A DNA stretch of 26,055 bases from a virus. The translations under genes were made by a program, and so were the position numbers. Position 1 is the first letter of the stretch; every line of letters starts with the position of its first letter. A model generated the notes under the pieces. That model was not told the DNA's origin. It did no database searches and was given only the letters and a program-made list of their open reading frames with translations. This document shows positions 2,442 to 16,602 of this stretch, piece after piece. The DNA is taken from the IMG/VR virus record IMGVR_UViG_3300027899_000933, positions 1-26,055 of that record; one strand, written 5' to 3'.

Positions 2442-3404
2442 ATGAGTAGCAAACAAGAAATATTAAAATATAGTCGTCAAGAAAACATGGCCCCACTGTC
2501 CAACTGGTTTGACGGTTCACTGAATCGACTGATCGAACAGGAAGTCTATCATGATGTGAATGCACTTGAGGACATTGGGCAAAAGCTGGTCAGTGGACTG
2601 ATCAGCTATGCAAAAAAGTTCAATGTCTACGACGCAGTGATTGGCATGAGTGGTGGGGTTGATAGTGCCCTGACTGCGGCCCTGTTCAAGCAAGCTGGCT
2701 GGCATGTAACTGGATTGACCTTGCCCATACATCAGAATCCCCAGGAGACTGATCGCGGTGTTGAGGCATGCCGTGCACTGGGGATTAAACACAAGCATAT
2801 TGATCTGACTAAAAATTATGACACTCTGTTAAAGAGTGTCAGGACACATGATCCAGAAATACTTGATGAAACTCAATCACTGCGCCGTGGAAATCTGCGT
2901 GTTAGATTGCGTATGATGACCCTGTACAATGAAGCCAGCGCAGTCAAGGGCCTAGTGGCCAGCACTGATAATTTCAGTGAGTTAGCTGCGGGGTTCTGGA
3001 CTCTGCACGGGGATGTGGGCGATGTGGCTCCGATTCAGAGTCTGTTAAAAAGCTGGGAAGTACCCAAGCTGGCTGAAATTTACGGAGTGCCATCGAGTAC
3101 AGTATTTGCCACACCCACTGACGGGCTGGGGATCAGCAAGGGTGACGAGGACCAATTTGGCTTTAGCTACTTGGAATTTGACACAGTGCTCATGCAACTG
3201 TGCACGGAGTCATTTCCCACCCGAGCTGAAATGCTAGCATACTTGGATGTGCCCGATACCGACCTGGCCAAGGTAAATACAATCCTGGACAGAATTAAAA
3301 ACAGTACATTTAAACGCAGCAACCCATATAATTTACAACATCCCCTGCAACAGAATAGATATCTGGGGTTAAGAAATGTTGATTATGGATTGTGGAACCT
3401 GTAG
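2442..3404 (+). CDS. nadE: NAD synthetase, ammonia-dependent type
   Basis: NadE amidates nicotinic-acid adenine dinucleotide to NAD using ATP and ammonia. Seen: SGGVDS PP-loop at residues 70-75, then NLRVRLRMMTLY matching the family's GN.kaR.RM..qY helix, STDNFSELAAGFWTLHGD matching the NadE T/GN..E...G..T.yGD motif, and a C-terminal TPTDGL...DEDQFG matching the conserved acidic loop. The 320-residue length is slightly more than typical bacterial NadE (about 275), with a longer N-terminal helix region. No glutaminase domain is present. The start at ATG 2442 is preferred to one at 2385, which lies inside the kinase gene. It could keep the NAD pool up during infection. Confidence 0.88.
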   Translation: MSSKQEILKYSRQENMAPLSNWFDGSLNRLIEQEVYHDVNALEDIGQKLVSGLISYAKKFNVYDAVIGMSGGVDSALTAALFKQAGWHVTGLTLPIHQNPQETDRGVEACRALGIKHKHIDLTKNYDTLLKSVRTHDPEILDETQSLRRGNLRVRLRMMTLYNEASAVKGLVASTDNFSELAAGFWTLHGDVGDVAPIQSLLKSWEVPKLAEIYGVPSSTVFATPTDGLGISKGDEDQFGFSYLEFDTVLMQLCTESFPTRAEMLAYLDVPDTDLAKVNTILDRIKNSTFKRSNPYNLQHPLQQNRYLGLRNVDYGLWNL

Positions 3405-3406
3405 AT

Positions 3407-3414
3407 TATAAATA
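3407..3414 (+). promoter_or_regulatory. T4-type late promoter octamer
   Basis: TATAAATA, an exact consensus match, lies 3-10 nt after the nadE stop and 24 nt before the ATG of the GNAT-like gene. It could start late transcription of 3439 and perhaps the following sugar cluster. Confidence 0.5.
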
Positions 3415-3438
3415 AATTGAATATCAATTTATACTGCA

Positions 3439-3882
3439 ATGATTTACACTATTCTTAATTTAAATGATCCTTTGGCTGCTTTTCTTAAAGACGATCCAGT
3501 GCGGCCGCATATTCCACACGATCAGCGTTTTGGTACCAATCGAACAGTTTTGGCATTAACTGATGGCGACCGGGTGACTGCGTTGGTATGTGCAAGATTA
3601 TGTGATATTGTGCCCAGGGATGAGCAAGAATTACTGGAAAATCAGACTGAAGCTCCCAATACTGTGGTTTTTTATACCATATGGAGTTATAATCCCGGCG
3701 CTGGGCAGAAGTTAATTCAGGAAGGGCTGGCGCAGTTAAAAGAGCAATTACCCATGGTTACTAGATATGTCACACTGAGCCCTATGACAGAAATGGCCAA
3801 GCGATTTCATATTCGCAATGGTGCTCAGGTGTTTAGAATCAATGACAGTAGTGTAAACTACGAATACAAAATAACTAATTAA
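3439..3882 (+). CDS. GNAT-like N-acetyltransferase family protein
   Basis: This 147-residue protein resembles small acetyltransferase-fold proteins common in T4-like marine phages. It has a central VFYTIWSYNPGAGQKLI segment, which could be the acetyl-CoA-binding loop and helix, then a strand VTRYVTLSP and a helix MAKRFHIRNGAQVFR. The latter is typical of the GNAT C-terminal helix-strand, with a basic RFHIRNGA turn. The substrate is unknown. It lies between nadE and the sugar cluster behind a late-type octamer. The GNAT call rests on the shape of these motifs, since the exact R/QxxGxG/A signature is only loosely matched. Confidence 0.6.
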   Translation: MIYTILNLNDPLAAFLKDDPVRPHIPHDQRFGTNRTVLALTDGDRVTALVCARLCDIVPRDEQELLENQTEAPNTVVFYTIWSYNPGAGQKLIQEGLAQLKEQLPMVTRYVTLSPMTEMAKRFHIRNGAQVFRINDSSVNYEYKITN

Positions 3883-3890
3883 TATTAACG

Positions 3891-4661
3891 ATGACTATCA
3901 AAAATTATGTGGTGTGTGCTCACCGCCGCATCAAAAGCACAAAATGGATCTGGAAAGACACCCGGGACGAGGGTGATATCTATGAATTGTACAAGCAGAT
4001 GTGTTTGCACAGTCTGAGCAGTGCTCGTCAATTCCTCCAGGGTGACTGGGAATACATCTTATTTGACGATGATGTAGAACATATTAATTTTGCCATGCCA
4101 CGTAACAACGATCTAATCCATGACCTCTGGCATCGTGAACCCTGCAATATTCTATGGGTTGGTCCCGACGTTCAGTTTGTCAAACCCACTGCAATTTTTG
4201 GGAAATTTAAGGATTTTCGATTGTTTAATTGGACTGACCCCAAAAGCTGGCATGAGCCCAATCAGTACAACGTGGGTTTTGATAATTTGTTTAACAACGA
4301 TCTACAATACTATCCGCACACCATGGATCCCGCGCTATGGGTCAAAGAACGTGAGATGCGAGCGGCTTGGGATGTTACCGAAGGGATGAACAGTTATAAT
4401 AATCAACAGATTGTGCATAACTCCATGTTCTGGATGCAGAATATTCCCTGGACTGATGCCCATCGTCCCGATTTATTCTATCAGGCACAGTGGTTGCCCG
4501 GCTGGGCTACCATGGAAGTTCAGAATGACTGGAATGGTTGCAACTATGAAGATGCCCAGGTCATCCACTGGCATAGCAGTCGCCACGCGCCCACCAAACT
4601 GGAATGCATGCGGCAGGTAAATGAAGCACTGGGTGTCCCTCTGGTCACCGAGCTGAAATGA
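3891..4661 (+). CDS. Putative glycosyltransferase-like protein
   Basis: This 256-residue protein looks like a family of putative GT-A glycosyltransferases in T4-like phages. Seen: a strand and turn WEYILFDDDVEHIN at about residues 53-66, a NILWVGPDVQFVKPTAIFGKF segment at about 87-107 where such enzymes carry the metal-binding D-x-D then a KP, a FRLFNWTDPKS segment, and a C-terminal NYEDAQVIHWHSSR. The first Asp of the expected DxD is replaced by Gly (GPD), so activity with metal is uncertain. It overlaps the next gene by ATGA and heads the sugar cluster, so it may attach the sugar made by the genes after it. The acceptor is unknown. Confidence 0.55.
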   Translation: MTIKNYVVCAHRRIKSTKWIWKDTRDEGDIYELYKQMCLHSLSSARQFLQGDWEYILFDDDVEHINFAMPRNNDLIHDLWHREPCNILWVGPDVQFVKPTAIFGKFKDFRLFNWTDPKSWHEPNQYNVGFDNLFNNDLQYYPHTMDPALWVKEREMRAAWDVTEGMNSYNNQQIVHNSMFWMQNIPWTDAHRPDLFYQAQWLPGWATMEVQNDWNGCNYEDAQVIHWHSSRHAPTKLECMRQVNEALGVPLVTELK

Positions 4662-5464
4662 AAATAGCTGTTTTGGGCGCCGGAGGATTTTTGGGTAAGT
4701 ACTTGTCTGCTACACTGAATGTCACACACACTGTGATTCCAGTTACCAGGGATACACTTGATCTATTGGACTTCTATCAGGTGACGCAATGGTTGGCCAA
4801 CACTGGCCCGGATGTGATTATTAATTGTGTATCCAGCAGCGGAAGTACCCGAGTAGACGATATAAATTACTCTGACGTCCAAAAAGATCTGGCAATTTTT
4901 TTAAATTTTTTCAATAGTACACAGAATTTTAGATTCATTAATATCGGCAGCGGGGCTGAATTTGATCGCAGACAGCCCATTCACATGGCCAAGGAGAGTG
5001 ACATATTTCGTTGTCGTCCTCTTGAAAGTTATGGCTTTGCAAAAAATATCATATCTCGGTTATGCCTGGAAAAAAATAACTTTTATACACTGCGGCTATT
5101 TGGCTGTTTTAATAATCAGGAACCAGAATCTCGACTGTTCAAGCGTTTTTTAAATGACAAAATCGACATCATCAACAATAAATGGTTTGATTATATTACC
5201 ATTGAGGATTTTGCCATCATAGTCGAGCACTACTGCGCAATTGAACAACCAACGCACCAGGACATCAATTGTGTCTATCAGGATAAATTTTTAATTAGTG
5301 ACATTCTGGAGTTGTTGGTAAAAACGCACCAGCTGAATAAACAGATTCAAGTAAACTCATCGACATCGAGTACCTGGGCATATTACACTGGGGATGGCAC
5401 CAAGTTGGCTGGTCTGAATTTAGCCCTGGGTGGGTTAGAAGAAGGAATTAGAAATTATGTCTAA
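4658..5464 (+). CDS. NAD(P)-dependent sugar epimerase/reductase (RmlD-like SDR)
   Basis: An extended short-chain dehydrogenase of 268 residues. The N-terminus has the Rossmann glycine motif GAGGFLGKYL (residues 7-16), then a PDVIINCVSSSG segment equivalent to the INC/AA motif, an INIGSGAEFD strand, and the catalytic Y-x-x-x-K in ESYGFAKN. It would reduce or epimerise a nucleotide-linked keto-sugar, as RmlD or GDP-fucose synthase does. It overlaps the upstream gene by 4 nt and the downstream gene by 8 nt, so the cluster is read as one transcript. The exact substrate is not clear; with an RmlB-type and an RfbH-type enzyme next to it, a 4-keto-deoxyhexose is likely. Confidence 0.75.
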   Translation: MKIAVLGAGGFLGKYLSATLNVTHTVIPVTRDTLDLLDFYQVTQWLANTGPDVIINCVSSSGSTRVDDINYSDVQKDLAIFLNFFNSTQNFRFINIGSGAEFDRRQPIHMAKESDIFRCRPLESYGFAKNIISRLCLEKNNFYTLRLFGCFNNQEPESRLFKRFLNDKIDIINNKWFDYITIEDFAIIVEHYCAIEQPTHQDINCVYQDKFLISDILELLVKTHQLNKQIQVNSSTSSTWAYYTGDGTKLAGLNLALGGLEEGIRNYV

Positions 5465-6410
5465 AAAAATTGTCTATGTTACTGGCTGCCTGGGATTTAT
5501 TGGTAGTCATGTGACCGAATCCTGCTTGGCTCTTGGCTGGTACGTGATTGGAGTGGATAAATGCACTTATGCCAGCAACACTGCCTGGCTTGATAGTTGG
5601 GATATTCGATACCCTGCACAATTTAATTTTATTAAGTCTGACATTAATGATCTGGACCGCCTGTACGACTGTGATTATATCATTAACACCGCAGCAGAAA
5701 CACATGTTGACAACAGCATAGAAGACAGCGACGCATTTGTACACAGTAACGTGGTTGGTGTGCATCATCTGCTGAAACTGATCAATCGTAAAAAATATAA
5801 AAGACCAATTTTCCTGCATTTTAGCACTGACGAAGTCTATGGAGATATCGCGCATGGATCACACACTGAAACTGACCTGCTACGGCCCAGCAATCCATAC
5901 AGTGCAACCAAGGCTGCTGCTGATCATCTGATCACCAGCTGGGGCAGAACTTACGGGCTGCCATATGTGATTGTTCGTCCCACTAATAACTATGGTATTG
6001 GCCAGTATGTGGAAAAACTAATTCCCAAGACAGTAAAATACATGAGTGTTGGTAGAAAGATTGATCTACACAATAATGGTACACCCATTAGAACCTGGCT
6101 ACATGCGAGCGACACCGCCAACGCAGTCATAGACATAATACACGCTGGTGCCATTAACGAAACTTACAACATCAGTGGTAATTGCGAGATGCCGAACATT
6201 GAAGTTGTTAAAAAAATTATCAACATGATGGTACCAGGTCAAGAAGTAGATATAGAGAATTATATCGAGCATATGACACGCATAGGTCAGGATGTCAGAT
6301 ACAGCATTGATGACACAAAATTAAAAAATCTGGGCTGGATTCCACTGGCAAACTTTGACACTGAGCTGGCAAAAATAGTAGAATATTACAAAGAAAATTT
6401 TATTTGGTAA
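5457..6410 (+). CDS. rmlB: dTDP-glucose 4,6-dehydratase type enzyme (RmlB-like)
   Basis: It would convert an NDP-glucose to the 4-keto-6-deoxy form with bound NAD. Seen: TGCLGFIGSH (residues 9-18) for NAD binding, VDKCTYASN matching the RmlB DxLTYAGN nucleotide-sugar site, AAETHVDNSI, HFSTDEVYGD with the catalytic Thr-Asp-Glu triad, YSATKAAAD for the Tyr/Lys pair, RPTNNYGIGQYVEKLIPK, and RTWLHASD near the sugar site. The 317-residue length is near the family's 330-360. These features favour a dTDP-type enzyme over the CDP-glucose dehydratase RfbG. That is odd, because the next gene is of the CDP-pathway RfbH type. Confidence 0.85.
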   Translation: MSKKIVYVTGCLGFIGSHVTESCLALGWYVIGVDKCTYASNTAWLDSWDIRYPAQFNFIKSDINDLDRLYDCDYIINTAAETHVDNSIEDSDAFVHSNVVGVHHLLKLINRKKYKRPIFLHFSTDEVYGDIAHGSHTETDLLRPSNPYSATKAAADHLITSWGRTYGLPYVIVRPTNNYGIGQYVEKLIPKTVKYMSVGRKIDLHNNGTPIRTWLHASDTANAVIDIIHAGAINETYNISGNCEMPNIEVVKKIINMMVPGQEVDIENYIEHMTRIGQDVRYSIDDTKLKNLGWIPLANFDTELAKIVEYYKENFIW

Positions 6411-6413
6411 CAC

Positions 6414-7733
6414 ATGGACAACATTCTTCAACAAGTACGTGAATACATCGAACAAAAACAACAATCTAAAACCTGGGTACCGGGTCGAGATTTTGTCAAC
6501 TATGCAGGTGCCTATTATGATGCCGACGAATATGTAGCCGGCGTGGCCAGTCTGCTCAATGGCTGGCTAGCCATGGGCAACGACGGTCTTAAATTTGAAC
6601 GGGAATTTCCAAAACAGTTTGGAAAAACCAAGGGCATTGTGACCAACAGCGGTAGTTCAAGCAACCTACTGATGATGAGTGCACTGACCAGTAAGCGTGG
6701 CCACAATCTACCACGTGGCACCAAGGTTCTGATGCCCATTGCTGGATTCCCCACCACACTGAATCCCACTTTACAGGTGGGATTTACTCCGGTGTTCGTG
6801 GATATTGAACTGGAAACACTCAATCTAGATGTGGGTAAATTGGAATCCATGCTGGCCGCTGATCCAGAGATTCGTGTGATTACATTCGCGCATGTGTTGG
6901 GAAATCCCCCCAACATGGACGAAGTCATGGCAGTGGTCAACAAGTACAAATTAATCCTCCTGGAAGATTGCTGTGATGCACTGGGTAGCACCTACGATGG
7001 TAAACCACTGGGTTCATTTGGGCTCATGGCGTCCTGTAGTTTTTATCCAGCACATCACATGACCATGGGCGAGGGCGGTTATGTTGCCACCAACGATGCC
7101 AACATTGATGTTATTCTGCGTAGTTTCCGTGAGTGGGGGCGTGGTTGCTATTGTGTTGGTCCCGAGGCAAATAAACTAAAGTGTGGTACCTGCGGCAATC
7201 GTTTTAAAAACTGGATTCCCACTCTGCCGGATCAGATATTTGATCACAAGTACGTCTATGACGAAATCGGTTATAATCTAAAGCCAATTGAACTACAGTG
7301 TGCCATGGGCATGGAGCAACTTAAAAAGTTGGACACTATTCATGCTTTGCGCCGCCGCAACTATCAATTACTATTCAACATCTATGAAAAATACGAAGAG
7401 TTTTTCTATCTGCCAAAGGCGACCCACAAGAGTGATCCTAGCTGGTTTGCTTTTCCTCTTACTATTCGCCCCGGTGCTCCTTTTACCCGTGCTGATGTTG
7501 TGGATTATCTGGAAGAAAACCTAATACAAACTCGTCCCTATTTTGCTGGTAACATCATGTTGCAACCTGCATACAGTCACCTAATGGATCCACAGCTGGC
7601 CAAGGATAATTTCCCCAATGCCACACATGCCATGACACACACATATTTTCATGGAACTAGTCCAGTGATAACCCCAGAGCAGATTGCCTACATTGACTCA
7701 ATCGTAACTGGATTCATGAGCCTTTATGTATGA
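6414..7733 (+). CDS. rfbH: RfbH/E1-type NDP-4-keto-6-deoxyhexose 3-dehydratase
   Basis: This is a PLP-fold protein of the DegT/DnrJ/EryC1 group, but of the dehydratase branch that uses PMP and an iron-sulfur cluster to remove the C3 hydroxyl. The usual PLP-binding Lys position holds His214 in SFYPAHHMTMGEGG, as in the Yersinia/Salmonella E1 enzymes. Cysteines at 187, 245, 247 and 257 give C-X57-C-X1-C-X9-C, nearly the E1 [2Fe-2S] pattern C-X57-C-X1-C-X7-C; Cys260 is a spare. A following DHKYVYDEIGYNLKP also fits RfbH. The 439-residue length is typical. E1 needs a partner reductase (E3/RfbI), which is not in the window. It overlaps the next gene by ATGA. Confidence 0.85.
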   Translation: MDNILQQVREYIEQKQQSKTWVPGRDFVNYAGAYYDADEYVAGVASLLNGWLAMGNDGLKFEREFPKQFGKTKGIVTNSGSSSNLLMMSALTSKRGHNLPRGTKVLMPIAGFPTTLNPTLQVGFTPVFVDIELETLNLDVGKLESMLAADPEIRVITFAHVLGNPPNMDEVMAVVNKYKLILLEDCCDALGSTYDGKPLGSFGLMASCSFYPAHHMTMGEGGYVATNDANIDVILRSFREWGRGCYCVGPEANKLKCGTCGNRFKNWIPTLPDQIFDHKYVYDEIGYNLKPIELQCAMGMEQLKKLDTIHALRRRNYQLLFNIYEKYEEFFYLPKATHKSDPSWFAFPLTIRPGAPFTRADVVDYLEENLIQTRPYFAGNIMLQPAYSHLMDPQLAKDNFPNATHAMTHTYFHGTSPVITPEQIAYIDSIVTGFMSLYV

Positions 7734-8353
7734 TTACTGCACAGGATCTTATTGATTTTGAAACTGATATTGCTGTGCTGTTCAATGCTGCAAGTATAAA
7801 GGCGCCGGTACATTTGTACGCAAACAATGAAGACAACATCATGCGTGTCTTTGAAAAAATTGACATTAAAAATGATTGGGTATGCTGTACCTGGCGAAAT
7901 CACTATCAGGCATTGCTCAAGGGCATTCCCAGCGACTTGCTCAGAGAAAAAATCATACAGGGCAAAAGTATGGTTATGAATTTACCCGAATATAAATTTG
8001 TAAGTTCCAGCATTGTGGGTGGCATTCCCAGCATTGCCACTGGGCTGGCGCTGGCAGCTAAACTCAAGCATTCCTCAGAGCATGTATGGTGCTGGACCGG
8101 AGACATGAGTGCAGAGACTGGTGCCTGGGGCGAAGCATACCGTTATTCGGTGGCTCATGAATTGCCCATAACTTTTGTAGTTGAAGACAATGGCCTGAGT
8201 GTGCTCACCCCGACCAGTAAAGTATGGGGGGAAGAAAAATGGTATCTACCGCATCAGAATCGCAATTGGTATGAAGGACCAAATTTAATCTATTACAAGT
8301 ACAGTAATAAAAAATATCCGCATGCGGGTGCAGGGATAAGGGTACAATTTTAA
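7730..8353 (+). CDS. Thiamine-diphosphate enzyme, E1 alpha-like subunit (shortened)
   Basis: This protein matches the TPP-binding subunit of two-oxoacid or acetoin dehydrogenases. Seen: RNHYQALLKGIP (about residues 56-67), SSIVGGIPSIATGLALAAK (93-111), and the TPP motif starting GD at 124-125 and ending EDN at 152-154, about the 30-residue spacing of GDGx(25-30)N. At 207 residues it is far shorter than a usual E1 alpha (about 330-370). It overlaps RfbH by ATGA and the beta-like gene by TAATG, so the two subunits are made together. In a sugar cluster it may move a two-carbon unit rather than serve central metabolism. That role is inference. Confidence 0.7.
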   Translation: MITAQDLIDFETDIAVLFNAASIKAPVHLYANNEDNIMRVFEKIDIKNDWVCCTWRNHYQALLKGIPSDLLREKIIQGKSMVMNLPEYKFVSSSIVGGIPSIATGLALAAKLKHSSEHVWCWTGDMSAETGAWGEAYRYSVAHELPITFVVEDNGLSVLTPTSKVWGEEKWYLPHQNRNWYEGPNLIYYKYSNKKYPHAGAGIRVQF

Positions 8354-8895
8354 TGACATCCAATCAACGATATAATCAGTGCTTAAAAGACGCAATGAAT
8401 TGGCTGGGAAGCCAGCCTGATGTGATTATTCTGGGGCAGGCAGTCTGCTATGCAGGTACTGGATGCTATGAAAGTCTAACCGAAGTTCCCCCTGACAAGA
8501 AAATGGAATTCCCTGTGGCAGAAAACTTTCAGATTGGGGTCAGTACTGGGCTAGCACTCAATGGATTTGTTCCGGTGAGTGTGGTTCCACGCTGGAACTT
8601 TTTACTATGTGCAACGGACCAGGTGATCAATCATCTGGATAAGTTATCCAAGATGAGCAATGGTGGATATGCACCCAAGGTAATTATTCGTGTGGCAGTT
8701 GGATCTGAAGTACCAGTGGATCCACAGGATCAGCATCGTGGTAATTTTTCTGATGCTTTTAGAAAAATGTGTGCAACCATTGACATCATTGAATTAACTG
8801 ATCCAGAATCCATAATGCCAGCCTATCAACATGCATATAGTAGAACCGACGGCCGCAGCACCATTGTAGTTGAGTTTCCTGATTACGGCAAATAA
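8353..8895 (+). CDS. Thiamine-diphosphate enzyme, E1 beta-like subunit (pyrimidine domain only)
   Basis: This matches the pyrimidine-binding half of E1 beta or transketolase. Seen: PVAENFQIGVSTGLALNG, with Glu57 in the place of the conserved Glu that activates the thiamine aminopyrimidine, then FLLCATDQVINHLDKLSKMSNGG, matching the beta-subunit F..a.DQi.n...K...ms.G pattern. At 180 residues it has no room for the C-terminal transketolase domain of normal beta subunits (about 325 residues). It is coupled to the alpha-like gene by TAATG, and together they could form a compact TPP enzyme. It is the last gene of the cluster; a new promoter starts at 8900. Confidence 0.7.
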   Translation: MTSNQRYNQCLKDAMNWLGSQPDVIILGQAVCYAGTGCYESLTEVPPDKKMEFPVAENFQIGVSTGLALNGFVPVSVVPRWNFLLCATDQVINHLDKLSKMSNGGYAPKVIIRVAVGSEVPVDPQDQHRGNFSDAFRKMCATIDIIELTDPESIMPAYQHAYSRTDGRSTIVVEFPDYGK

Positions 8896-8899
8896 CAAT

Positions 8900-8928
8900 T
8901 TGACTTAATTATTGGTTAATGTTAGTAT
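8900..8928 (+). promoter_or_regulatory. Sigma70-type promoter
   Basis: TTGACT (8900-8905), 17 nt, then TAGTAT (8923-8928). The spacer begins with TAAT and ends with GT like the other promoters of this set. The small gene at 8956 follows 27 nt later. Confidence 0.6.
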
Positions 8929-8955
8929 GCAGCTACATTAACTTAGGAATCTATT

Positions 8956-9111
8956 ATGTTTGAATCTATTGAAATCCGCAAAGTGGCCAACGGTTTTGTA
9001 CTAACAGTGCATACTGAAGAAGAAACCAAAGAATACGTTTACGACAGTTCACGCAAGGCCATGCGTGTGATTAAACAATACATTGACGCTGACCACAAGA
9101 GCACAGAATGA
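8956..9111 (+). CDS. Small conserved-looking protein of unknown function
   Basis: A 51-residue protein starts at ATG 8956, with TAGGAA at 8944-8949 as a ribosome binding site. It has alternating charged and beta-type residues (EIRKVANGFVLTVHTEE, then EYVYDSS) and ends in a basic helix. No cysteine motif or membrane segment. It has its own promoter upstream and another directly after it, so it is probably made early and separately. Small proteins of this look are common in T4-like phages; function unknown. Confidence 0.7.
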   Translation: MFESIEIRKVANGFVLTVHTEEETKEYVYDSSRKAMRVIKQYIDADHKSTE

Positions 9112-9118
9112 TTTTTGG

Positions 9119-9147
9119 TTGACGTAAAATACGACTTCGGTTATAAT
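9119..9147 (+). promoter_or_regulatory. Strong sigma70-type promoter
   Basis: TTGACG (9119-9124), exactly 17 nt, then perfect TATAAT (9142-9147). The spacer starts TAAAAT and ends GT, shared with 1612 and 9439. It precedes the gene at 9180 by 32 nt, and TTAGGAGT at 9168-9175 is the ribosome binding site. Confidence 0.75.
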
Positions 9148-9179
9148 ACCAACATCGCGTAACAACTTAGGAGTCGAAA

Positions 9180-9437
9180 ATGTCCACAGTACATAGCATT
9201 TGGAAAACCGGATACGCAGTGCATACAGCATTGGGTGTTGAGCTTGTTGGTGAAACAGAAAAAGCCATGAAGTTCAAGGTTCTGAATTCTAGCAAAGGGT
9301 ATACTTTTTACATGCCCAAGAAAGCATTGGCCGCCGACAAGACCACTGAAGGTATCCTTAATCTTGCACCCTGGTACAAAATCGAAGGATTTATTGAATA
9401 TCTTTTTGATCAGTACGCCAATCATTACGCTCGCTAA
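9180..9437 (+). CDS. Small protein of unknown function
   Basis: An 85-residue soluble protein behind a strong host-like promoter and a good ribosome binding site (AGGAG). It has a beta-type N-terminal half (TGYAVHTALGVELVGE, then FKVLNSS), a YTFYMPKKAL segment and an aromatic C-terminus (LAPWYKIEGFIEYLF). No catalytic motif seen. It stands alone between two promoters, so it is likely an abundant early product. I do not recognise the family. Confidence 0.75.
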   Translation: MSTVHSIWKTGYAVHTALGVELVGETEKAMKFKVLNSSKGYTFYMPKKALAADKTTEGILNLAPWYKIEGFIEYLFDQYANHYAR

Positions 9438-9499: not shown

Positions 9500-10537
9500 A
9501 TGTCAGCAACTATCCGTATCCGCAAGGGCAACTATCGTGGCACTTCTGTTAAAAACAAAGTGTTTGAATTGGTAAAGCAATACAAGAAGACACCCAACGG
9601 TGGGCATGTAACTGTGCGCAACGGCGGAAATTTTGAAAATTGCCCCGAGGTTGTGCGCATCAAAGTTTCTGGAATTTCCGACTATGAATTTATCAGTGGG
9701 CAAGAACTGCATGAAGCACCTCTGCTGGATCAACCCAATGACGAACCTGTTGATGAAGTTTCCACCGAGACCGACGAGCAAGTTATGACCCGTATCCGTG
9801 AACGTTTTGAAATCCTAACCGAAATGACCAAGGCAGCAACCACTGGCGACATTCGTGCCATGATTGTGTCCGGCCCCCCGGGTGTGGGCAAGAGTTTTGG
9901 TGTCGAGCAAGAAGTTGAAAAGGCATGCTTGTTTGATCAGCTGGCCGGTAAGAAAATTCGTGCCGAAGTGGTCAAGGGTTCAGCGACTGCACTGGGTCTG
10001 TTCTCCACACTGTACAAGTACAGCGATGCAAATTCTGTGCTGGTATTTGATGACTGTGATGGCATCCTACTTGATGATGTTTCCCTGAATCTGCTCAAAG
10101 GTGCTTTGGATTCTGGAAAAAAACGCAAGATCAGCTGGTTGAGCGATAGTTCCATGTTGCGCCGTGAAGGCATCCCTGATCAGTTTACTTTTAACGGGTC
10201 TGTGATTTTTATCACAAACCTGAAGTTTGACAAGATGCGTAGCCAGAAACTGCGTGACCACTTGGATGCACTCCAGTCACGTTGCCACTATCTGGATCTG
10301 ACTCTGGATACCATGCGTGACAAGATCCTGCGCATCAAGCAGATTGCCAAGGATGGGGAACTGTTCAAGGACTACGGTTTTGATGCTGATGCTCAGCACG
10401 AAATCCTGGATTTTATGACTGACAATCAGAATCGTCTGCGTGAAATGAGTCTGCGCATGGCACTGAAAATTGCAGATTTGCGCAAGAGCTTCCCACTCAA
10501 CTGGAAGCGCATGTCTGAAACGACCTGTATGCGTTGA
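9500..10537 (+). CDS. AAA+ family ATPase
   Basis: A 345-residue protein with a central AAA+ core. Walker A GPPGVGKS is at residues 125-132, Walker B VLVFDDCD at 180-187, and a sensor-1-like strand IFITNLKF follows. The first ~90 residues are a basic, beta-rich extension (RIRKGNYRG...) ending in an acidic linker, and the C-terminus is a basic helical region. The role cannot be fixed: AAA+ proteins with such short cores act as remodelling factors, helicase or clamp loaders, or defence-linked motors. It is driven by its own strong promoter and closed by an intrinsic terminator, so it is a single-gene early unit with its two small neighbours upstream. Confidence 0.85.
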   Translation: MSATIRIRKGNYRGTSVKNKVFELVKQYKKTPNGGHVTVRNGGNFENCPEVVRIKVSGISDYEFISGQELHEAPLLDQPNDEPVDEVSTETDEQVMTRIRERFEILTEMTKAATTGDIRAMIVSGPPGVGKSFGVEQEVEKACLFDQLAGKKIRAEVVKGSATALGLFSTLYKYSDANSVLVFDDCDGILLDDVSLNLLKGALDSGKKRKISWLSDSSMLRREGIPDQFTFNGSVIFITNLKFDKMRSQKLRDHLDALQSRCHYLDLTLDTMRDKILRIKQIAKDGELFKDYGFDADAQHEILDFMTDNQNRLREMSLRMALKIADLRKSFPLNWKRMSETTCMR

Positions 10538-10615: not shown

Positions 10616-11155
10616 ATGAGCCTCAAAGAAATTACTCAGGATTTACATCGAGCAGCGGAGGCCACTGACTTTATGAAATCAGTTTTTGATGGATCACTTG
10701 ATCCTGATTGCTGGATGGATTTTGTACATCAGAAATTTTTATTTTACAGTGCCATAGAAGGTGCAGCAACTCCGCTGGGCCTGCTGGTTGATTTACCTGA
10801 TATACAGCGATCATTTAAATTAAAACATGATTATATGACCATGACCGGTGGTCAATTGCGTCACCGCCATAGGGCAGTGACCATTGAGTACTACAACTAC
10901 GTATGGTCTATTTCCCAAGACCCTGACAAAATCATGGCACACCTGTATGTCTGGCACCTGGGTGATTTATTTGGTGGGCAGATGATCAAACGTATGATAC
11001 CAGGTTCCCATGAATCACTGGAATTTGAGGGCAGGGATAAATTAATTAGCACCATCAGAAATAAATTGGATGATGCCATCATGGGCGACGAAGCTCGTGT
11101 GGGATTTGAATGGGCTATAAGGATATTAAAACAATATGACAACACCTCTACTTGA
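10616..11155 (+). CDS. ho: Heme oxygenase (biliverdin-forming)
   Basis: It would open heme to biliverdin IX-alpha, CO and iron using O2 and electrons from a ferredoxin. Seen: the N-terminal helix ITQDLHRAAEATDF, with His11 in the place of the proximal heme ligand, then FLFYSAIEGA, and the distal-helix motif HLGDLFGGQ (residues 114-122) matching the family's RYLGDLSGGQ. The 179-residue length suits small bacterial/phage forms rather than the ~240 of cyanobacterial HO1. It overlaps the bilin reductase gene by 20 nt, so product and substrate are coupled. The start is ATG 10616; the ribosome binding site is weak. Confidence 0.9.
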   Translation: MSLKEITQDLHRAAEATDFMKSVFDGSLDPDCWMDFVHQKFLFYSAIEGAATPLGLLVDLPDIQRSFKLKHDYMTMTGGQLRHRHRAVTIEYYNYVWSISQDPDKIMAHLYVWHLGDLFGGQMIKRMIPGSHESLEFEGRDKLISTIRNKLDDAIMGDEARVGFEWAIRILKQYDNTST

Positions 11156-11807
11156 ACGTGTACTTAAAGTGGGACGGTATTTTGAGCAACGCTTAAAAGA
11201 AACCGGGCAGATTATACCAGATGCTGCCACTGGATATGATTGGTATAATCATCTGTACTCCAGCGCTACCTATCGACGGGCCCATGTGGAGATTGTGGAC
11301 AAGATGCAAAGCCATAAAATTCTGGTTCTGCATTGTACCATATTCCCCCATTATAACGATCCCAGCCCAATCTGGGGATTTGATGCAGTGTGTGGGCCAA
11401 ACAAAATTACCGGGGCGTTCCATGACATGAGTAATGGTGGCGACCCCGGCCATTTTATGATTGAGCATTTTGCTCACACTGTTAAAGATCTAAATTGGAA
11501 AAAAGAACGTCAATTACCACCCTGGGCCCAGGAAATCTTCAGCGAACATATTGTGGCTGCGGGGAACATAAACGACCAACAAGAGCTTGAAAAGCTATGC
11601 AGTCTGGCTGAAAGTAATCTGGATTATTATCTGAGTAACGTGGGAAAAACAGCAAACGCTGATCATGATTTTTATGAAATACAACGAAAATATAATGCCA
11701 ACAACAAGCAAAATCCGCATGTTGCACGTAGCATGATCAGCATGGGTGTTCCCGAACCCACCATAATGAAATTTATCGACGAAGTATTATATTCAGAAAA
11801 CCGTTGA
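11136..11807 (+). CDS. Ferredoxin-dependent bilin reductase (PcyX/PebS/PcyA family)
   Basis: It would reduce biliverdin in ferredoxin-fed steps. Seen: YRRAHVEIVDKMQSHKILVLHCTIFPHYNDPSPIWGFDAV-like core (residues 46-85), with Glu52, His66 and Asp83 in roughly the places of PcyA Glu76, His88 and Asp105, then HDMSNGGDP. The length of 223 is close to PcyX and PebS. The ho gene directly upstream overlaps it by 20 nt, the arrangement known for phage ho-pcyX and ho-pebS cassettes. PcyX and PebS make phycoerythrobilin in a four-electron reduction. From motifs alone PcyX cannot be separated from PcyA or PebS, so the symbol is left blank. Confidence 0.88.
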   Translation: MTTPLLERVLKVGRYFEQRLKETGQIIPDAATGYDWYNHLYSSATYRRAHVEIVDKMQSHKILVLHCTIFPHYNDPSPIWGFDAVCGPNKITGAFHDMSNGGDPGHFMIEHFAHTVKDLNWKKERQLPPWAQEIFSEHIVAAGNINDQQELEKLCSLAESNLDYYLSNVGKTANADHDFYEIQRKYNANNKQNPHVARSMISMGVPEPTIMKFIDEVLYSENR

Positions 11808-15295: not shown

Positions 15296-15539
15296 TACCG
15301 TCTACATATATGAACGAGTAAACGGTACAGTGTACCGACGAGAATCGGGGGCAGACCCTAGTTCTAGACAAGTTGTGGGGTATAACTATCACGAATTGGA
15401 TTATCACGAAGATGATGCGTTATGGAGAGAGATATTGGCAACGTCGAAAAGAAATGAAACCTTGCGCTCTGAAATAGAACGTGTTAAAATTCTGTATCTT
15501 CTTCTTAAAGAAGAAAGCAATAATTTAGTAAAGTGGTAG
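15276..15539 (+). CDS. Conserved-looking phage protein of unknown function
   Basis: An 87-residue protein. A longer frame opens at 15216, but ATG 15276 gives the better N-terminus, followed by TVYIYERVNGTVYRRESGADPSSR, a pattern I recall from T4-like marine phages (YERxxGxxYxRExGAxPxxR). The C-terminus is a charged helix of the type used for coiled coils. It overlaps the previous gene by 20 nt. Function unknown. Confidence 0.65.
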   Translation: MGNLTPNTVYIYERVNGTVYRRESGADPSSRQVVGYNYHELDYHEDDALWREILATSKRNETLRSEIERVKILYLLLKEESNNLVKW

Positions 15540-15544
15540 CTAGT

Positions 15545-16156
15545 ATGAAAAATTTAATAGTATTTGGTGATAGTTGGCCCGCAGGTGCTGACTTGCAGCA
15601 TCCACATCAAGATTCTTTCCCCACAATATTGGCTCAAAAATTAAACTTAAATTGTAAAAATTTAAGCCAAAACGGATCAAGTATAGATCATGCAGTGGTT
15701 AAATTTTTAGAAACAGACATCACCAATGCTATTATACTGTTCTGTGCAACGGGTTATGCAAGAACAATGAAAATTGATCGAGGAAATTTATTTGAAGTAC
15801 ATCCACAAGATCCTGCTATGGAATGGTATTACACAAAATTATACTCGGATGAATTAGGAAATCTTAACAGAATTAAAAACTGTCTGTTGGTACAAGAAGT
15901 TTGCAAAAATAAAGGAATCCCTGTATACTTTGTGTCTAACTGGGATCCAGTACCGTCTCACGCCCTATTAAATCATGCTCAATGGTCACCAAAAACATTT
16001 ACGCAAATGATAAGTACTGGCCCTTGTAATCCAGACTACGAAGTAGACTGGTCAAAAGTAAATCGAAAATATATGACACAGCGCAGTTCTCATCCAAATA
16101 AAGAAGGGCACATGTTAATAGCAGAAGAATTATACAGATGGATAAACTCTCAATAA
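15545..16156 (+). CDS. SGNH/GDSL-like hydrolase
   Basis: A 203-residue protein. A GTG start at 15533 would add four residues; ATG 15545 is preferred. It has the N-terminal GDSW (residues 8-11), where the serine nucleophile of SGNH hydrolases sits, an NLSQNGSSIDHA block, and a C-terminal SSHPNKEGH that gives the histidine. The usual Asp three residues before this His is not there (an Arg is), so activity is uncertain. Such proteins remove acyl or acetyl groups from polysaccharides or lipids. The DNA is visibly richer in A/T than its neighbours, which may mark a recent insertion. It overlaps the next gene by 19 nt. Confidence 0.7.
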   Translation: MKNLIVFGDSWPAGADLQHPHQDSFPTILAQKLNLNCKNLSQNGSSIDHAVVKFLETDITNAIILFCATGYARTMKIDRGNLFEVHPQDPAMEWYYTKLYSDELGNLNRIKNCLLVQEVCKNKGIPVYFVSNWDPVPSHALLNHAQWSPKTFTQMISTGPCNPDYEVDWSKVNRKYMTQRSSHPNKEGHMLIAEELYRWINSQ

Positions 16157-16602
16157 ACAATGAAATGGCGCAACTCGATCTTAAAAATCGAGCCTTTATG
16201 GAAGAACTGACTGAAGAAGAACGAAAAAAATTCAGCACATTTTTAATGATGAAATACAGTGCCAATGTGGAAGGTAGCACTGAAATGCAGGCCTGGTATC
16301 TACTAGCCAGCAACGAGCGGGTAAATAAAAACTTTTTCGATCTAGGTAAGCATCCCAAGTTACAATGGTTACTGTGTACCACAGTGAGTCCATCCCTGGG
16401 TCGTCAACGTCACTACTGGCTATCAACAAAAAAGAACGAAGGCCCCCGGGCCAAGATACTTAAATTTTTGAGCAACCTGTATCCATACATGAAATCTGAT
16501 GAGATAACTCTGTTGGCCGAGGTTAACAGTGAGAAAGAAATAAAAATTCTAGCACGAGATCTGGGCTACTCGGACAGCGATATAAAGAAAGAACTGGGAT
16601 GA
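16138..16602 (+). CDS. Possible clamp-loader small subunit (gp62-like)
   Basis: A 154-residue helical protein. Its central KHPKLQWLLCTTVSPSLGRQRH resembles the cyanophage clamp-loader small subunit gp62 as I recall it; gp62 works with gp44 to load the gp45 clamp at primer ends. The rest is acidic helix with an ending of LARDLGYSDSDIKKEL. The gp44 and gp45 genes are not in the window. A nearby zinc-finger and DnaE-like gene fit a replication neighbourhood. The call is from motif memory only. Confidence 0.5.
   Translation: MDKLSINNEMAQLDLKNRAFMEELTEEERKKFSTFLMMKYSANVEGSTEMQAWYLLASNERVNKNFFDLGKHPKLQWLLCTTVSPSLGRQRHYWLSTKKNEGPRAKILKFLSNLYPYMKSDEITLLAEVNSEKEIKILARDLGYSDSDIKKELG

Follow-up and report, generated by a model that had tools for sequence, protein, structure and literature searches.

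A viral gene cassette pairing an RfbH-type dehydrase with exchangeable ThDP enzymes, and its putative branched deoxysugar

Described branching systems and the phage cassette

Branched (tertiary-alcohol) sugars are described mainly from Gram-negative O-antigens, mycobacteria and antibiotics, and the literature that we searched contained none attributed to a phage. In the yersiniose pathway (AscC/RfbH and YerE) of Yersinia and other Gram-negative O-antigens, an RfbH-type dehydrase is followed by ThDP carboligation on a 4-keto-3,6-dideoxy sugar; YerE acts on CDP-3,6-dideoxy-4-keto-D-glucose, which is the product of RfbH. The alphaKADH2 pairs of actinobacterial antibiotic clusters (AviB1/AviB2, Pau11/Pau12 and KbDH) have been implicated in the C2 branching of keto-sugars (PMC12247030, PMC4425429), and knock-out of pau11 abolished paulomycin (PMC4425429).

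The window, by which we mean the whole stretch of 26,055 nucleotides of viral DNA analysed, holds at 3891-8895 (+) six ORFs, all on the plus strand, that make up one nucleotide-sugar gene set. These ORFs and two neighbours are:

3439-3882, +, small acyltransferase-like protein (PF05292 match), upstream of the cassette
3891-4661, +, putative glycosyltransferase, 256 aa, predicted GT-A fold, no Pfam family
4658-5464, +, NAD(P)-dependent short-chain dehydrogenase (SDR), RmlD/epimerase-like, 268 aa
5457-6410, +, RmlB-type NDP-glucose 4,6-dehydratase, 317 aa
6414-7733, +, predicted RfbH/E1-type C3 dehydrase, 439 aa
7730-8353, +, ThDP enzyme subunit alpha, 207 aa, E1-alpha PP domain only
8353-8895, +, ThDP enzyme subunit beta, 180 aa, PYR domain only
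9500-10537, +, AAA-type ATPase (phrog_1250), bounds the exchangeable slot on the right in sibling phages

The dehydratase is RfbG (CDP) in the yersiniose pathway and RmlB (dTDP) in the phage cassette, and YerE is a single-chain acetolactate-synthase-type flavoprotein whereas the phage enzyme is a minimal E1-like two-gene pair. RmlB also lies beside RfbH in dTDP-sugar clusters of Streptomyces. The first-pass annotation had cited YerE as a precedent from a different TPP family; the window's pair indeed lacks the single-chain TPP_enzyme_N/M/C architecture of YerE, but E1-like precedents with two subunits exist too (AviB1/AviB2, PMC12247030). The alphaKADH2 pairs share with the phage pair a two-gene E1-like alpha/beta organization and a link to deoxysugars, with C2 addition proposed or shown for them. 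They differ in size, Pau11/Pau12 having 325 and 345 aa (PMC4425429) against 207 and 180 aa in the phage, where the C-terminal parts are absent, and in context, the phage pair being linked to RfbH outside any antibiotic cluster. A bacterial polysaccharide cluster on the Methylovirgula plasmid pHY1 (rfbF-rfbG-SDR-rfbH-transketolase N-transketolase C) likewise has a two-gene ThDP enzyme directly behind rfbH, but with full-size transketolase halves and the CDP-glucose genes rfbF and rfbG. The 'transketolase central region' proteins of cyanophages S-SM2 and P-TIM68 (phrog_34187) are minimal E1-like domains about 35% identical to the phage pair; they differ in that PP and PYR are fused in one chain, RfbH is absent and the neighbourhood is GDP-heptose-like (kinase, nucleotidyltransferase and phosphoheptose isomerase).

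Conservation and enzymes of the cassette

The first-pass annotation had described six overlapping genes for a glycosyltransferase, an SDR, a 4,6-dehydratase, an RfbH-type 3-dehydratase and an alpha/beta TPP enzyme. The six ORFs were confirmed; neighbouring genes overlap at four of the five junctions (by 4, 8, 4 and 1 nt), and only RmlB and RfbH are set apart, by a 3-nt gap. It had also proposed looking for the same gene order in other phages. Homologues of the alpha subunit (59-82% identity) were found in 80 viral contigs, with the beta gene directly behind in all 80, the RmlB of the cassette within 8 kb in 76 and RfbH in 62. Because alpha/beta, RmlB and RfbH recur together across these contigs, the gene grouping at 3891-8895 is not due to chance. 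A nucleotide search of phage records with 3400-9400 as the query gave zero matches.

The RmlB-like protein scored 301.5 bits (E 6e-90) against TIGR01181, below the equivalog cut-off of 365.1 bits, yet this is clearly its best family: a CDP-glucose-type profile gave 72 bits and its ten top PDB matches are all dTDP-glucose 4,6-dehydratases. Its catalytic residues TDE and YxxxK are present (STDEVYG and YSATK in the translation). The 6414-7733 product exceeds the curated cut-off of the RfbH profile NF011936 (454 against 423 bits) and matches structure 3bcx with an E value of 2e-97. Its H214 aligns with H220 of E1 (3bcx), which replaces the PLP-binding Lys, and the motif SF[YF]..H was found in 212 of 221 homologues. 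Four cysteines conserved across the family (C187, C245, C247 and C260) align with C193, C251, C253 and C261 of E1, which we take to be the [2Fe-2S] ligands. Judged by its profile score and these residues, the protein is a true RfbH-type C3 dehydrase, as the first-pass annotation had proposed. Among 20 related phage records no ferredoxin-type or NAD-binding reductase domain (PF00175, PF00111) was found as a reductase (E3) partner, so that RfbH reduction must lean on the host; since the host may supply this reductase, its absence says nothing about RfbH itself.

The alpha subunit matches PF00676 (E1_dh, E 1.5e-12), keeps the ThDP motif GDM..N and, in alignment with full-length E1 alpha, lacks the C-terminal ~110 aa. 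Its model (pLDDT 91.7) has the fold of human PDH E1 alpha (TMq 0.67-0.71). The beta subunit matches PF02779 (E 3.6e-5) and NF006667 (PDH E1 beta, E 8e-11), and the catalytic Glu57 (FPVAE) and His128 (QH) are invariant in the family alignment. It is without Transketolase_C, as there is no PF02780 match and the alignment with full-length E1 beta stops before that domain. On these sequence features the pair is an E1-like enzyme reduced to its two catalytic domains, PP and PYR, which agrees with the earlier description of a cut-down thiamine enzyme: at 207 and 180 aa it has shed the non-catalytic domains and kept the ThDP motif, the Glu and the His. We found no counterpart among characterised E1-like enzymes that consists of two domains without the C-terminal ones. 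Homologues in named phages were limited to the fused proteins of ~35% identity, and a plasmid search with the alpha subunit returned ordinary E1 alpha.

The SDR matches PF01370 (E 2e-13) and PF04321 (E 2e-7), and reached 29.7 bits against the RmlD equivalog TIGR01214 (cut-off 224). Its earlier designation as RmlD-like therefore holds for the SDR superfamily only, RmlD identity being unproven. An SDR match was found in 73 of the 80 alpha-seeded contigs, and in most related contigs the homologue comes after the ThDP pair; it could be the enzyme that reduces the branch ketone or a ring ketone. A Pfam profile search gave no family for the glycosyltransferase at 3891-4661. The best Foldseek matches of its AlphaFold model (pLDDT 83.4) were glycogenin, GT6, GT8 and other GT-A enzymes (E 3e-6, TM 0.5-0.56), and a 16-row alignment of the family showed an invariant GxD (G91, D93). 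As modelled, the product has the GT-A fold of a glycosyltransferase.

Among the 18 alpha-seeded contigs without the cassette RfbH, nine carry a His-type DegT dehydratase instead and the other nine have no C3 dehydratase in the available sequence, some despite long flanks. A transaminase in these RfbH-less contigs was considered and rejected for most, because the DegT protein has an active-site His in place of Lys and no Fe-S cysteines.

Exchange of the ThDP enzyme behind RfbH

When viral contigs were seeded by RfbH, a ThDP enzyme was found inside the 6-kb flanks in 76 of 80, and in 71 of those 76 loci it lies one or two genes downstream of RfbH; control loci seeded by another sugar gene (an epimerase) had one in 3 of 80. 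Four architectures occur: split acetolactate-synthase (ALS) type (28 loci), full-length ALS type (18), minimal E1 alpha/beta (18) and minimal split transketolase (12). In sibling phages the flanks are constant (NadE, acyltransferase, GT, SDR, RmlB, RfbH and, on the far side, AAA) and the slot between them holds E1 alpha/beta, an aminotransferase with split ALS, split ALS alone or the full-length ALS type. The last is exemplified by a 587-aa single-chain TPP_enzyme_N/M/C protein (L122:7343-9106) that shares its domain architecture with YerE. Named phages had no genuine homologue of this full-length enzyme; the matches, many of them from short unannotated records, resembled bacterial acetolactate synthases. 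For the more distant phage RfbH proteins (S-H68, L003, L005), no ThDP enzyme of this kind lies close by.

Our data support the view that RfbH and the ThDP pair are parts of one set, the strongest evidence being that enzymes of YerE architecture, split versions and minimal transketolases fill the same slot. The RfbH tree requires the ThDP type to have changed 32 times or more, in some cases between near-identical RfbH proteins, and such repeated exchange of the putative branch-forming enzyme beside a nearly constant RfbH suggests selection on side-chain structure. Some slot variants bring extra genes, an aminotransferase before split ALS and a NeuB-like synthase before full-length ALS, which could make longer 2-oxo-acid donors; the side chain may for this reason be read as a switching trait. 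We tentatively suggest, at somewhat short of an even chance, that phages keep the RmlB-RfbH-GT-SDR core and exchange the carboligase, so that the side chain switches rapidly as hosts or competing phages select on it.

Proposed product and its use

The cassette probably builds a 4-C-branched 3,6-dideoxyhexose of the yersiniose type, which the phage glycosyltransferase would put on an acceptor. We infer the substrates, product, order of steps and acceptor as follows. RmlB would dehydrate host-made dTDP-glucose to the 4-keto-6-deoxy sugar, and RfbH would remove the C3 hydroxyl using PMP, its [2Fe-2S] cluster and electrons from a donor of the host. The minimal E1-like alpha/beta pair would then decarboxylate a 2-oxo acid (pyruvate is the likeliest) and join the two-carbon acyl anion to the keto group at C4 of the RfbH product. 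The SDR would reduce the new side-chain ketone (or a ring ketone), and the GT-A glycosyltransferase would load the sugar onto its acceptor within the infected cell. Sibling phages would run the third step with three other ThDP types, which makes the side chain the exchangeable part. If this is true, phages would be a large untapped source of ThDP carboligases that accept ketones, among them the smallest of E1-like and transketolase-like type met in this analysis, and phages differing in this one slot would make the role of phage sugars directly testable by following a single trait.

The branch could instead be a hydroxyacetyl or dihydroxyethyl group, if the pair transferred a C2 ketol as transketolase does rather than decarboxylating pyruvate. 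Transketolase/DXS-like minimal pairs do fill the slot in 12 of 80 loci, full-size transketolase halves follow rfbH on a bacterial plasmid, and transketolases are proposed for the miharamycin and amipurimycin branches (PMC12247030); yet profile and fold both place the window's pair with the E1-like enzymes, and known E1-like carboligases take pyruvate (PMC12247030), making this unlikely for the present locus. Still less probable is a plain 3,6-dideoxy sugar beside a ThDP pair with a separate role in carbon metabolism, where it would count as an auxiliary metabolic gene close to PDH or transketolase. Cyanophages carry pentose-phosphate genes. The distant phage RfbH proteins have no ThDP neighbour, and lists of viral auxiliary genes already include RfbH by itself (PMC10653327, PMC11295528). 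Against this, each of the four ThDP architectures adjoins RfbH (76/80 versus 3/80 in the control), no E2/E3 partners were found within the window, and the pair lacks the E1 C-terminal domains. The first-pass annotation had left the choice between a branched and a dideoxy sugar; the same 76/80 against 3/80 makes a branched 3,6-dideoxy sugar, as a predicted product, the best reading.

As uses, virion or DNA decoration or a change of the host surface had been put forward. T4 DNA carries glucose, and a comparable decoration here, with the swapped enzyme tracking restriction systems, would fit a T4-like genome, a soluble GT-A enzyme and a strongly diversified sugar enzyme. We regard it as very improbable: no base-modifying gene was recognised within the window, and PF00303 (thymidylate synthase/dCMP hydroxymethylase) is absent from 13 of 20 related records, among them a 167-kb relative having the window's flanking genes, because of which T4-type decoration is not favoured. 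We see about an even chance that the acceptor is either the lipopolysaccharide core of the host or a virion protein, for example the tail fibre, and that adsorption, superinfection or recognition is altered as a result. Glycosyltransferases go with the cassette (GT-A here; GT34, GT10 and GT-D-like in relatives), tail-fibre genes lie ~10 kb downstream, and the O-unit flippase family PF01943 is absent from the 20 related records, so that the phage itself does not encode a route of polymer export. We rejected a complete O-antigen pathway encoded by the phage, as these records have no such flippase and a PF00483 nucleotidyltransferase occurs in 3 of 20 only.

A lipopolysaccharide or virion target concerns what the sugar is used for and can hold together with the branched-sugar explanation. 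The small acyltransferase-like neighbour (3439-3882) is kept upstream in sibling contigs L021, L099, L101, L104, L106 and L113.

The cassette and its sugar enzymes

The window is a 26-kb virus record of a T4-like phage with a UvsW-type helicase, tail fibres and a virion structural protein whose nearest relatives are in marine cyanophages (about 47% identity). On its + strand a tightly packed cassette of six genes (3891-8895) encodes a protein with no Pfam match, an SDR, an RmlB-like dehydratase, an RfbH-like dehydrase and a pair of thiamine diphosphate (ThDP) proteins, with overlaps at four of the five junctions and a 3-nt gap between RmlB and RfbH. The first protein is, judging by its model, a glycosyltransferase (GT) of GT-A fold: the model (pLDDT 83) matched glycogenin and GT6 in Foldseek (E 3e-6, TM about 0.55). 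In profile searches RmlB scored 301 bits with the dTDP-glucose 4,6-dehydratase model versus 72 with the CDP-glucose model, and its ten best PDB matches were all dTDP-glucose 4,6-dehydratases. RfbH exceeded the curated profile cut-off and its alignment with Yersinia E1 (3bcx) spanned its length (E 2e-97), placing His214 at the position of E1 His220 and cysteines 187, 245, 247 and 260 at E1 positions 193, 251, 253 and 261, which we take to be the Fe-S cluster ligands.

The ThDP pair is strongly reduced. Both profile and fold identify alpha as an E1-alpha PP domain, its model (pLDDT 91.7) matching human PDH E1 alpha (E 7e-11, TMq 0.67-0.71), and beta is an E1-beta PYR domain. Alignment with full-length relatives showed that about 110 C-terminal residues are missing from alpha and the whole Transketolase_C domain from beta; the ThDP motif and the beta glutamate and histidine are all retained despite this loss. 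Pau11 and Pau12, which form an E1-like pair in the pathway to a branched sugar, have 325 and 345 residues (PMC4425429).

Sibling phages, which share the window's flanking genes, keep an NAD synthase gene (2445-3404 in the window) 5' of the cassette and, upstream of the GT, a protein (147 aa, 3439-3882 in the window) that hits the acyltransferase-like model for the C-terminal part of malonyl-CoA decarboxylase. At 10616-11807 the gene of a ferredoxin-dependent bilin reductase adjoins a heme oxygenase gene; among named phages the reductase has its closest homologue in Pelagibacter phage Mosig (36%), which suggests a host other than a cyanobacterium.

Distribution of the minimal pair

The search confirmed relatives of alpha in 94 stretches of viral DNA, 80 of which were kept (59-82% identity, contigs up to 453 kb). 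Beta lies directly behind alpha in all 80, while RmlB (at least 50% identity) is present in 76 and window-type RfbH in 62. Nine of the 18 contigs without window-type RfbH carry a DegT protein with the active-site Lys changed to His, and most of these nine proteins are devoid of the Fe-S cysteines, like ColD-type C3 dehydratases; no DegT-type C3 dehydratase was found in the searched DNA of the other nine. L058, L064, L071 and L085 have RmlB, alpha/beta and SDR together and no C3 dehydratase in up to 8 kb of DNA to each side; there the branch may be put directly on the 4-keto-6-deoxy sugar. Contig L063 carries the pair twice, at 8001-9200 (64% identity to the pair of the window) and at 15324-16500 (49%).

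A small number of genome bins from bacteria and archaea have minimal pairs too (Pelagibacteraceae, Omnitrophota, Desulfobacterales, one Parcubacteria and one Nanoarchaeota bin). Minimal or fused E1-like ThDP proteins with no RfbH are found in L091 and L093 (Pelagibacteraceae), L092 (Omnitrophota) and the cyanophages L001 and L002, in several cases beside nucleotidyltransferase and sugar-kinase genes and in some also with GDP-mannose-dehydratase-like or phosphoheptose isomerase genes; they perhaps make a branched heptose. Radical SAM/SPASM genes adjoin the minimal pair in L094 and L096 (Nanoarchaeota bin, Desulfobacterales bin).

The exchanged slot behind RfbH

A second search, seeded by RfbH rather than alpha, gave 80 viral contigs. 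A ThDP enzyme lies within the 6-kb flanks in 76, and in 71 of those it is one or two genes 3' of RfbH; among 80 control viral loci seeded by another nucleotide-sugar epimerase, 3 had one. Four architectures occupy the slot.

ThDP architectures behind RfbH in RfbH-seeded viral loci
Minimal E1 pair: 18 loci
Single protein of about 587 aa, TPP_enzyme_N/M/C, acetolactate-synthase (ALS) type, YerE architecture: 18 loci
Split ALS type, N+M domains and C domain on two genes: 28 loci
Minimal split transketolase/DXS-like pair: 12 loci

ThDP-binding motifs and the catalytic Glu are kept in the consensus sequences of all four. Siblings carry differing ThDP enzymes within common flanks (NadE, acyltransferase-like, GT, SDR, RmlB and RfbH, with the AAA protein downstream), and a quick tree of 101 RfbH sequences with many weak nodes gave a rough number of at least 32 changes of ThDP type. 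The transketolase/DXS-like pair (L164:4835-5443, L169:5594-6139) is a second minimal pair that also has no C-terminal domain, apparently by independent shrinkage within one genomic slot.

Of the 28 loci with a split ALS-type enzyme, 18 have an aminotransferase 5' of it, which is of class I/II and immediately adjacent in L141 (6348-7514), L099, L100, L101, L104 and L214; speculatively, it could supply another 2-oxo-acid donor. A NeuB-like synthase directly 5' of the full-length ALS type in five loci (e.g. L170:3704-4816) might, equally speculatively, provide a long one.

Proposed chemistry and acceptor

YerE transfers pyruvate-derived activated acetaldehyde to CDP-3,6-dideoxy-4-keto-D-glucose, the sugar that RfbH makes, and the donors of ErwE are hydroxylated 2-oxo acids of greater length; keto-sugars receive C2 branches from E1-like pairs of the alphaKADH2 class, and transketolases have been proposed for hydroxyacetyl branches (PMC12247030). 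The same phage RfbH precedes all three classes (ALS/YerE type, E1-like pair and transketolase type), and the simplest reading of these gene orders is that the slot would provide an enzyme for carboligation to the sugar made by RfbH. Gene content, residues, fold, the loss of domains and the exchange of enzymes are established by the analysis, and the substrates, product and step order that we infer for the window follow from this reading: its ThDP pair would form a 4-C-acetyl 3,6-dideoxyhexose, which the SDR would then convert to the 4-C-(1-hydroxyethyl) 3,6-dideoxyhexose, both as dTDP sugars. Streptomyces clusters show the dTDP pairing of RmlB with RfbH, and in a bacterial locus rfbH is followed by full-size transketolase halves.

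Chemistry of this kind is known; what is new is to find it in a phage, with minimal enzymes and in a slot open to exchange. Catalogues of viral auxiliary genes already list RfbH by itself (PMC10653327, PMC11295528), and for phages our literature search found no paper connecting it with a ThDP enzyme. The cassette, with its two-gene enzyme, lies outside the YerE pathway as defined, in which YerE is a single chain, and alphaKADH2 enzymes have full-length subunits, unlike the window's pair; even so, the cassette probably works like both.

We searched 20 longer related records, which may be incomplete, for families bearing on the fate of the sugar. None of them had a reductase or ferredoxin domain (PF00175/PF00111) and only three had a PF00483 nucleotidyltransferase, so electrons and nucleotide sugar must be supplied by the host; PF01943 flippases were found in none of the 20 and there is therefore no phage-encoded polymer export. 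T4-style DNA glycosylation is not favoured because the thymidylate synthase/dCMP hydroxymethylase family is absent from 13 of these possibly incomplete records, including a 167-kb relative with the window's flanks. The likeliest acceptor is either a glycan on the surface of the host or a protein of the virion.
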